From an uncultured Litoreibacter sp. (GTDB taxonomy: Bacteria > Pseudomonadota > Alphaproteobacteria > Rhodobacterales > Rhodobacteraceae), in NCBI GenBank assembly GCA_947494645.1, contig CANLVO010000001.1:248001-312000 (forward strand): a stretch of 64,000 nt of DNA, written 5' to 3'. This document shows, in pieces, positions 31,059 through 33,264 of the stretch. Under the pieces are notes generated by a model, which was not told the origin of the DNA, ran no database searches, and saw only the letters and a program-made list of their open reading frames with translations. The translations under genes were made by a program, and so were the position numbers. The first letter of the stretch is position 1. Every line of letters starts with the position of its first letter.

Positions 31059-31976
31059 TTAAACTTTCAGGTTCGGGATGATCTGTTTCTTGCGGCTCAT
31101 GATGCCGGGAAGGACCACGCTGTCGCCTGTGACCGTTGCGCCAAAGCTGGCTTCAGCTACGCGCTTGGACAGATCATTGGGGATCAGCATCGTGGCTTCT
31201 TCGTTGAGGATATCGACGACGAAGAGAAGCACCTCGTTCACTTTGTCTTCGCCCGCAACTTTCGGCATGGCCGCCATCAGCTCTGCCTTGCGGTCGAGCA
31301 CCCTCTTGGGAGAGGTCGTTTCTAGCACGGAGACGCGGAATTTCACACCATCCACCTCGTATTCTTTGCTGTCCATGCGCAAAAGCTCTGCCTCGGAAAA
31401 GGCGGAGACGTCGGATTTCGCGGCGAACATGTCAGCAGCGTAGTCCGCGATACCGATGCCCAGATCAGCGGCCAGGCTTTCGGCCAGCGCGCGGTCGGTC
31501 TCTGTCGTGGTTGGGGACCGAAATTCGAGCGTATCTGACAGGATGCAACTCAGCATCGCGCCTTTGATTGGCTCGGGCATATGGGAGGCGTGATCGCCCA
31601 TCAGGTCGTGCATGATCGTCGCGGTGCAGGCCAGAGGGCGGATTGTGATGTCGATGGGGCCTGCGGTCTCCAGCCCGCCGACCAGTTTGTGGTGGTCGAT
31701 GATGGCCTGGATATCGGCGCTGTTGATGTTGTCCGGCAGCTCGGCGGGATTGTTGGTGTCGACGATGATGCACGGCTGCTCTGCTGCGATTTCGGAAATG
31801 ATCTCAGGCTTGCTCAGGCCCCAGCGTTGCAGCACGAACGCGGCTTCGGTGTTGGGCTCGCCCAGCAAAACAGCGCGTGCGTCGCCGCCTTGATGGTTCG
31901 AGAACCATTCCCAAATCAGCGGCGCGCCGGTGCTGTCAGTGTCGGGTGATTTATGGCCGAAAATCAATGTCGTCAT
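31059..31976 (-). CDS. ppaC: Manganese-dependent inorganic pyrophosphatase
   Basis: This 305-residue family II (DHH) pyrophosphatase hydrolyses PPi. Metal-ligand motifs GHKSPDTDS at residues 7-15 and IIDHHKLVGG at about 92-101 (the DHH box) are present. The C-terminal DHHA2 domain ends with PGIMSRKKQIIPNL. No CBS regulatory domains are inserted. It is first of a minus-strand run of seven genes with short gaps, although a shared transcript is not certain. Confidence 0.95.
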   Translation of the reverse strand: MTTLIFGHKSPDTDSTGAPLIWEWFSNHQGGDARAVLLGEPNTEAAFVLQRWGLSKPEIISEIAAEQPCIIVDTNNPAELPDNINSADIQAIIDHHKLVGGLETAGPIDITIRPLACTATIMHDLMGDHASHMPEPIKGAMLSCILSDTLEFRSPTTTETDRALAESLAADLGIGIADYAADMFAAKSDVSAFSEAELLRMDSKEYEVDGVKFRVSVLETTSPKRVLDRKAELMAAMPKVAGEDKVNEVLLFVVDILNEEATMLIPNDLSKRVAEASFGATVTGDSVVLPGIMSRKKQIIPNLKV

Positions 31977-32096
31977 GGAGCGGTCCTAAGTATTCGGTGG
32001 GTTTCGCGGCCTTATAGGAGGGGTGGGCGGAGATGTCACGGGGTCGGTGCCGCGTTTTGACATGGGCCACGGGGCAGGGTATGAAGACGCATCTGA

Positions 32097-32280
32097 ACAG
32101 GAGATCGCAGACAATGGACCATAGCGCTTAAACCCGCCCGCTTGCGACCGCGCGCTTGCCGCGCCCCATAGCTGTTTCAGGAGTACACTGACAATGGACA
32201 CCATCCGCTAGCCCCGGTTTCGGGGCGCTGATCGTTTGCGCGCTTTTGCGCGTGCCCCAGTCTTTCCAAAACGAAAGGGC
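32097..32280 (+). promoter_or_regulatory. Tandem mini-ORF leader with hairpins
   Basis: Two related units lie in the 309-base gap before the 68-residue basic protein gene. Each has CAGGAG, six variable bases, then GACAATGGAC. Unit 1 encodes the five-codon ORF MDHSA (ATG 32114, stop TAA 32129-32131). Unit 2 encodes MDTIR (ATG 32194, stop TAG 32209-32211). Each is followed by GCGCGC-type hairpins and GCCCCA. After unit 2, hairpin GCCCCG/CGGGGC (32211-32226) starts in the stop codon, and its right arm can alternatively pair with GCCCC at 32254-32258. A last stem (CTTTC/GAAAG, 32262-32277) covers the next ribosome-binding site. The layout suggests translation-dependent control; that part is inference. 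Confidence 0.55.
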
Positions 32281-32285
32281 GCGTT

Positions 32286-32492
32286 ATGCCCAAATCCAAA
32301 AACACCCGCCTGCGCGGGACCAAATCGGCTGCCTTGTCAAAACAAAAGAAACCGAAGCGCGGCGCGGCGCATGTTTCGCCGGGCCCAGTCAAAACCGGGT
32401 TCAACCCTGATGATCTGAAGCGTGCTGGCAAGGCGCAGCGGTGCTCTGGCGGCAAGCCTCCGCGGTTTCCGGGCAGGACCGGCGGTCGATAA
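32286..32492 (+). CDS. Small, highly basic protein of unknown function
   Basis: This 68-residue protein is Lys/Arg-rich throughout, with the phrases SKQKKPKRGAAHVSPGPVK, TGFNPDDLKRAGKA and PRFPGRTGGR. I do not recognise the family. It is predicted to be disordered and may bind nucleic acid. The GAAAGGG ribosome-binding site is six bases before the ATG. The structured mini-ORF leader argues that it is a real, regulated gene. It lies upstream of the DUF2161 gene by 94 bases, with a 10-bp hairpin (32503-32529) between them. Confidence 0.65.
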   Translation: MPKSKNTRLRGTKSAALSKQKKPKRGAAHVSPGPVKTGFNPDDLKRAGKAQRCSGGKPPRFPGRTGGR

Positions 32493-32586: not shown

Positions 32587-33264
32587 ATGCGCGAGACAGA
32601 GCTTTACCCGGCCATCAAGAGCTATCTTGAGGGGCAGGGGTACGAGGTAAAATCAGAGGTGGGCGCCTGTGACGTGGTGGCAATGCGCGGGGACGCAGAG
32701 CCCGTGATCGTGGAAATGAAGACCGCGATGAGCCTTTCGCTGTTTCATCAAGGCGTGGCACGGCAGGCGGTAACAGATGCGGTCTACATTGCGGTGCCGC
32801 GCGGGTCAGGCAAACGCTTTGCCAAATCGCTGAAGGATAATCTGGGGCTCTGCCGCCGGTTGGGTTTGGGGTTGATCACCGTGCGGATGCGCGACGCGCT
32901 GGTCGAGGTGCATCTGGACCCTGGCCCTTATGCGCCGCGCAAAACCAAGCAGCGGCGCGACCGATTGCTCAGGGAATTTGCCCGCCGGGTGGGGGATCCG
33001 AATGCCGGAGGGGCCACGCGGGTTGGTTTGGTGACGGCCTACCGCCAGGACGCGCTGCGCTGTGCGCAACATCTATCAGATGAGGGGCCCAGCAAAGGAG
33101 CGGACGTGGCCGCGGCCACTGGCGTGGCGCAGGCCACGCGGATCATGGCGGCGGATCACTATGGCTGGTTCGAGCGGGTTTCTACCGGGATTTATCAGCT
33201 GACCCCGAAAGGCAGGGAGGGGTTAGTGACCTATGCCGGGCGTGGGGCTGACGCAATGGCGTGA
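32587..33264 (+). CDS. DUF2161 domain protein (PD-(D/E)xK nuclease-like)
   Basis: This 225-residue cytoplasmic protein has the restriction-endonuclease-like phrase CDVVAMRGDAEPVIVEMKT at about residues 28-46. This gives the D...ExK catalytic pattern of PD-(D/E)xK nucleases, with MSLSLFHQGVARQAV next. The C-terminal part (about 150-225) looks like a winged helix (GVAQATRIMAADHYGWFERV). This arrangement matches DUF2161. The substrate is unknown. No methylase or partner gene is adjacent, so it is not a restriction system. Its last 34 bases overlap the end of the convergent GGDEF gene. Confidence 0.85.
   Translation: MRETELYPAIKSYLEGQGYEVKSEVGACDVVAMRGDAEPVIVEMKTAMSLSLFHQGVARQAVTDAVYIAVPRGSGKRFAKSLKDNLGLCRRLGLGLITVRMRDALVEVHLDPGPYAPRKTKQRRDRLLREFARRVGDPNAGGATRVGLVTAYRQDALRCAQHLSDEGPSKGADVAAATGVAQATRIMAADHYGWFERVSTGIYQLTPKGREGLVTYAGRGADAMA

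Follow-up and report, generated by a model that had tools for sequence, protein, structure and literature searches.

A conserved 5′ leader with two tandem five-codon mini-ORFs upstream of a small basic protein gene in Rhodobacteraceae

The DNA analyzed here, a stretch of 64,000 nucleotides (nt) from an uncultured Litoreibacter sp. (Rhodobacteraceae; contig CANLVO010000001.1, positions 248,001 to 312,000), is referred to as the window and is numbered from its first letter. Within it, the gene for a small basic protein of 68 amino acids (aa) is preceded by a 5′ leader with two tandem mini open reading frames (mini-ORFs) of five codons, each with its own Shine-Dalgarno (SD) site. After duplicate removal, 56 leaders of this paired type, representing 28 genera of this family, were tabulated, and translation of both mini-ORFs is well supported by this conservation. 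It is proposed, with a confidence slightly short of an even chance, that the ribosome's cycle on these frames, and not the encoded peptide, would be the signal, and that the leader would act through Rho or RNA stability.

Results

Both units of the leader share the arrangement CAGGAG-N6-GACAATGGAC, which is present at 32098-32119 and again at 32178-32199, with a spacing of 80 nt. The first SD site and mini-ORF 1 span 32098-32131 on the forward strand (ATG at 32114, frame 32114-32131, MDHSA, TAA stop), and the second SD site and mini-ORF 2 span 32178-32211 on the same strand (ATG at 32194, frame 32194-32211, MDTIR, TAG stop), with GCCCCA found 3′ of both units. Two tandem units with these peptides and this spacing had been described in the first-pass annotation, and their positions were confirmed in the window sequence. 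Across the 3.44-Mb genome, the shared arrangement has only two matches without a mismatch, both in this leader, the next best match carrying two mismatches. No general excess of such mini-ORFs was seen within the window: a loose SD rule returned 7 frames of up to 8 codons on the forward strand and 17 on the reverse strand, with a single other five-codon frame (MISPG, 53276). A chance origin of the pair was rejected by the genome-wide pattern scan, an offset control and shuffling.

A search of 21 genomes of the genus located the basic protein in 4, that of the window included, and in all four it is preceded by two mini-ORFs. Further leaders were gathered with a profile of the protein, by synteny with the neighboring gene ppaC (see below) and then with a sequence-only leader model, R1, trained on 17 leaders carrying such mini-ORFs. 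The protein profile gave 14 matches, 7 of which had the conserved tail; among the other 7, L064 and L066 were scanned and gave nothing further. At the loose limit of E ≤ 0.1, R1 matched 105 of 394 family genomes, the weaker matches that were read being mostly other than paired leaders. At E ≤ 0.001 in an order-level sample, 46 of 371 genomes and 18 of 132 genera were matched, 4 of the 46 (G420, G472, G593 and G440) belonging to a second type that precedes a RibD_C-like gene; the order-level matches listed were all from the same family, and because the sample's other families are uncertain, absence elsewhere does not follow. Leaders were parsed by an SD-like site, certain second codons, a frame of at most 15 codons and a small protein downstream, and the 56 leaders are therefore not a random sample. 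Removed from 59 parsed loci were L218 (the same locus as L003) and L233, L234 and L242 (RibD_C type), whereas L060, L086, L228, L230 and L241, which the parser had missed, and a later find, L270, were added by hand. Two pairs were parsed in L229, and the one with a three-codon frame was discarded.

When one leader was taken per genus, the first in-frame stop fell at codon 6 in 23 of 28 genera for mini-ORF 1 and 24 of 28 for mini-ORF 2, against a mean of 0.66 for both when the following bases were shuffled (highest of 2000 shuffles, 5 and 4, respectively). Across the 56 leaders, 48 have five codons in mini-ORF 1 and 51 in mini-ORF 2, and of the two frames mini-ORF 2 is kept more strictly. The sample found first through the basic protein (the window and G010, G017, G019, G099, G178, G249, G288, G347 and G361) has five codons in 9 of 10 and 8 of 10, respectively. 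All three stop codons are used, with TGA, TAA and TAG in 29, 23 and 4 leaders for mini-ORF 1 and 40, 14 and 2 for mini-ORF 2. Residue 2 is Asp in 39 of the 48 five-codon mini-ORF 1 frames and 48 of the 51 five-codon mini-ORF 2 frames; residues 3-5 are variable, with mini-ORF 1 ending in Val or Ala in 38 of 48. In the 15 leaders from the genus of G313, the peptides of mini-ORF 2 are MDMFG, MDMTD, MDHLG, MDMTP, MDQSQ, MDMTQ, MDMSR, MDMLQ, MDRSH, MDMAP and, once, MDQF. Since one stop codon can replace another and residues 3-5 differ even between members of a single genus, it is the frame length that is conserved and not the peptide. Neither a run of codons for one amino acid nor a conserved arrest peptide was found in the codon tables and peptides of the tabulated leaders, and amino-acid sensing and peptide-specific arrest were rejected in view of the variable residues and codons.

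An exact pattern for frames ending in TAA or TGA was run against 132 family genomes. Its five-codon version matched 11 times in 10 genomes, compared with 4 matches at six codons and 1 at four; the reversed control pattern gave 1, 0 and 1, respectively. The 11 five-codon matches comprise 7 known leaders (6 paired, 1 of the RibD_C type), 1 new paired leader (G085) and 3 that are chance-like; many leaders, that of the window among them, escape so strict a pattern. A binding site for a protein or a small RNA, repeated twice and merely ORF-like, would fit with the SD site, start codon and GAC second codon being among the most conserved bases (codon 2 is GAC in 40 of 56 leaders for mini-ORF 1 and in 51 of 56 for mini-ORF 2). 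It leaves unexplained both the stop at codon 6, with its exchange of TAA, TGA and TAG, and the shorter frames closed by another in-frame stop (three codons in both frames of G347 and four in G425), and its probability is considered close to negligible.

Hairpin B (GCCCCG-GTTT-CGGGGC, 32211-32226, forward strand) takes the last base of stop 2 as its first base and is also present in the predicted fold, as expected from the first-pass annotation, in which this hairpin was said to abut the stop codon. A compact hairpin of at least 4 pairs is kept in 52 of 56 leaders, starting 16-21 nt past the A of AUG2 and most commonly at +18 (26 of 52), against a mean of 23 and a maximum of 32 in 300 shuffles. 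There are 35 different left (5′) arms among these hairpins, some differing only in length, so that the pairing has persisted through changes in sequence. Among the 17 leaders collected first, the hairpin B score was reached in 16 at its place, with a mean of 3.7 at other offsets. Hairpin A (32150-32164, forward strand) is part of the fold predicted for the window leader, at a distance of 18 nt from stop 1; a hairpin starting at +32 to +40 from AUG1, or 14-22 nt past stop 1, is found in 41 of 56 leaders (mean of 13.6 and maximum of 23 in 200 shuffles). The first-pass annotation had staked its proposal on conservation in close relatives; the mini-ORFs and these two hairpins proved to be conserved there, which strongly supports two translated mini-ORFs as a leader module.

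The same annotation had gone further and suggested that ribosomes on the mini-ORF choose between structures and thereby control the basic protein, with the right arm of hairpin B pairing instead with a downstream GCCCC (32254-32258, forward strand) and the last stem hiding the ribosome-binding site of the basic-protein gene (SD3, AAAGGG, 32274-32279, forward strand). The alternative pairing is possible in this species (GGGGC/GCCCC) and in G288 (GGGGT/ACCCC), but it is available in 8 of the 52 leaders with hairpin B versus 8.3 expected by shuffling. For the window, folding predicts a paired SD3; across the 56 leaders, however, it is no more hidden by an alternative hairpin than in shuffles (mean unpaired value 0.37, against 0.32 after shuffling, the native value being the higher one in 36 of 56). 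Hairpin C (GCGCGC-TTTT-GCGCGT, 32238-32253, forward strand) is inconstant among relatives; of 15 aligned leaders from one genus, four (L134, L211, L212 and L214) lack a counterpart. No terminator-like site was found between 32092 and 32286 in the window's leader, for which an intrinsic terminator was rejected. Competing hairpins with a hidden ribosome-binding site are thus not supported as a conserved mechanism and are regarded as highly improbable, whereas the leader module and the junction of stop 2 with hairpin B are conserved. As far as these predicted structures go, what is conserved is local hairpins at set places and not a global switch.

A likely promoter on the forward strand (32057-32085) consists of TTGACA (32057-32062), a 17-nt spacer and TATGAA (32080-32085), and would place the transcript start near 32092; mini-ORF 1 would therefore be the first frame met by a ribosome. 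A strict sigma-70 scan did not report this site in the window. Among the 56 leaders, 49 have a TTGAC-like box (TTGAC, TTGAT or TTGTC) 56-60 nt 5′ of AUG1, against a shuffled mean of 0.7 and a maximum of 5. Stop 1 is followed by a C-rich, G-poor spacer (32132-32149, forward strand), which may be a Rho-loading (rut, Rho utilization) site or an RNase-sensitive stretch. Where mini-ORF 1 has five codons, the first 17 nt past its stop have a C content of 0.44 and a G content of 0.20. C minus G is +0.165 in the first spacer and +0.129 in the second, and for each of them it is positive in 26 of 28 genera. As a control, the 54 nt upstream of the SD site of 54 window ORFs of at least 100 aa gave +0.014 (standard deviation 0.13; positive in 33 of 54), a value that comes from one genome only, with false ORFs possibly among those used.

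Ribosomes held at two strong SD sites near the 5′ end might instead simply shield the transcript from RNases, the mini-ORFs acting as mRNA-protecting minigenes whose stops merely release the ribosome, with no transcription switch. The start of mini-ORF 1, about 22 nt from the transcript start predicted from the promoter position, would suit such a role, and precedents discussed in PMC8708949 are the two-codon axe-txe minigene and the six-codon esp mini-ORF, which guards its transcript against RNase E. As retold in that article, however, the esp binding site alone suffices, whereas the leaders described here preserve the frame length, the stop and its junction with the hairpin; moreover, the axe-txe leader is AU-rich and the present leaders are C-rich. 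Protection of this kind is considered unlikely, if by no means far-fetched.

The basic protein itself (32286-32492, forward strand) has a variable body and a conserved end, PPRFPGRTGGR in the alignments. Most members terminate in PGRTGGR or a PG(R/K)xxGR variant, and this tail is the best-conserved part of the protein. No Pfam, NCBIfam or PDB-sequence match was found for it, 17 of 17 members scanned had 0 Pfam families (DUF1127 included), and tblastn against plasmids returned none. The AF2 prediction (pLDDT 66.8, pTM 0.19) has no confident fold, and with these searches any known family or fold was rejected. The tail motif K/R-P-P-x-F-P-G-R (K/R-P-P-R-F-P-G-R) resembles ribosome-binding proline-rich antimicrobial peptides. 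On that likeness, and on the conservation of the tail, a feedback loop can be envisaged in which the protein would bind ribosomes through its Pro/Arg/Gly tail and delay initiation or termination, the delay being reported by its own mini-ORFs. The protein has no sequence match to any solved structure, and a short Pro/Arg likeness is cheap, which leaves the binding putative and the loop improbable.

A second user of a similar leader was found in 8 further genomes, where a single short frame precedes a RibD_C-like gene (L233, L234, L242, L244, L245, L251, L256 and L257). These frames read MIKTA (twice), MIKMA, MIKIA, MIKKA, MIQTA, MTKQA and a three-codon MIK. All 8 downstream gene fragments start with I/V-IYDVA...DG (in G440 through a TTG start); 5 of 8 are above the curated cut-off for RibD_C (PF01872), 2 are just below it, and L244, which shares the N terminus, has no match. 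The hairpin starts at +21 to +31 in these leaders, a range given here without a control, and C exceeds G in the spacer in 7 of 7 measured (+0.04 to +0.23). The M-x-K-x-A frame pattern had no match in the window's own genome. Occurrence of the single module ahead of a RibD_C-like gene suggests, from sequence comparison, a portable unit. A separate short frame was noted in L261 (219-247), where GGAG-N10-ATG GAG CGT TAA ATG forms a three-codon frame whose stop runs into the start of the next gene, presumably one for a MoxR-type ATPase-like protein.

In the window, the leader and the basic-protein gene are flanked by a divergent gene with DHH and DHHA2 domains (31059-31976, reverse strand; PF01368 and PF02833), which we take to be that of a manganese-dependent pyrophosphatase and call ppaC, and by a downstream DUF2161 (PD-(D/E)XK-like) gene (32587-33264, forward strand; PF09929, E = 6.4e-43). 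The ppaC start was readable in 109 of 110 fetched upstream regions. A strict motif located the DUF2161 start in 38 regions, in 34 of which it lies 94-305 nt from ppaC, leaving no room for the cassette. By eye only, the DNA 3′ of the basic-protein gene is unlike DUF2161 in L195, L197, L198, L199 and L200, all of which have the cassette. No paper on DUF2161 was found in the full-text literature, a source in which subscription papers are mostly outside coverage, and there was no Rfam match above the gathering score in the window.

Discussion

Comparison across the leaders establishes the start, length and stop of the frames, the placement of the hairpins and the C-rich spacers, and from these a mechanism is inferred in which the signal would be the ribosome's initiation, four elongation steps and termination. 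With a reach of about +15 to +18, a ribosome initiating on AUG2 would just touch hairpin B, and one terminating at stop 2 would cover its left arm; five codons would be the length at which initiation leaves hairpin B closed and termination opens it. Such footprint geometry would account for the joint conservation of length, stop and hairpin in frames whose residues drift. Coverage of about 12 nt downstream of the translated codon is given in the relevant part of PMC4833913. Ribosome traffic on both units would set the time for which the C-rich leader is covered or structured, which in turn would decide whether RNA polymerase continues (Rho) or the mRNA survives (RNase). Production of the basic protein would then follow the supply of ribosomes or the state of early translation and not one amino acid, with scarce or stalled ribosomes bringing either induction or repression.

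Several observations weigh against this proposal. Many of the leaders were found by R1, itself trained on such leaders. Mini-ORF 1 differs from five codons in 8 of 56 leaders and mini-ORF 2 in 5 of 56: G347 has three codons in both frames, seven other mini-ORF 1 frames have 6-18 codons, and three other mini-ORF 2 frames have 4, 7 and 9. In G178 (L060), the stop of mini-ORF 2 is lost and the frame runs on for 118 codons, with the hairpin at +18 retained. The GAC preference at codon 2 could reflect nucleotide-level constraint. Hairpins with the same score as hairpin B occur at other offsets in up to 13 of 17 leaders, probably because some of these offsets overlap hairpin A, and the window leader folded in full has ordinary stability (z = -0.32), which 74 of 200 shuffles equal or exceed. 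The C-richness is compositional and no test of Rho, with a control limited as stated above; it is what a Rho-linked leader would show and not proof of one.

Among known systems, trpL-type attenuators and Erm-type leaders also combine a leader ORF with hairpins, whereas repeated regulatory codons and a conserved peptide are absent here, as is a terminator-like site from the window's leader. The nearest experimentally studied parallel found is the DUF1127-1 leader of Sinorhizobium meliloti, in which, according to PMC12218461, an upstream ORF (uORF) precedes a small arginine-rich protein, the control is presumably Rho-dependent, and monitoring of ribosome availability is proposed by the authors. 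Both leaders are alphaproteobacterial and have a translated uORF with an element richer in C than in G after its stop (38% C and 18% G there; PMC12218461). The DUF1127-1 leader, however, has one uORF of at least 24 codons with the first attenuation element inside the frame (PMC12218461), in contrast to two five-codon frames with hairpins, and the present protein has no Pfam match and is not recognized as DUF1127. The toiL leader of Escherichia coli topAI-yjhQ likewise has a short uORF, described in PMC12121999 as a general translation-stress sensor linked to Rho termination, but occlusion is not conserved in the present leaders.

The nearest very short frames are the minigenes of PMC8708949 (axe-txe, the LEE4 esp mini-ORF and ler), described there as cis-acting leader ORFs with an SD site. 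The present leader qualifies as a mini-ORF or minigene leader in the same sense, having few-codon ORFs with their own SD sites in a 5′ leader. Those minigenes have 2 or 6 codons, and the passages of PMC8708949 on them mention neither a conserved pair in tandem nor a fixed length nor a hairpin abutting the stop. Reinitiation leader genes are also short ORFs that precede a gene and lack regulatory codons, with a frequency peak about 10-16 nt before the gene in the account of PMC4833913. In the present leaders, by contrast, stop 2 lies 49-137 nt from the gene start for an 18-nt frame (67-155 nt from AUG2), and no leader stop within about 16 nt of it was found. No description of this paired leader was present among the full-text literature matches listed, with subscription papers again mostly outside coverage.

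A broader reading, which is possible but on balance doubtful, is that of a portable module that would read the ribosome cycle, built from a strong SD site, five codons of arbitrary sequence, a stop, and a hairpin whose distance is fixed. One copy of it would precede RibD_C-like genes, and a tandem pair would precede the gene of a small basic protein that perhaps binds ribosomes or RNA, five codons again being the length at which initiation would leave the stop-flush hairpin closed and termination would open it. Conserved five-codon frames are of a size that ordinary gene finding is not expected to list. Leader ORFs are usually explained by the encoded peptide or by starved codons; with codon number and stop position kept across 28 genera while the peptide drifts, the family would offer a natural experiment on peptide-free ribosome signaling.
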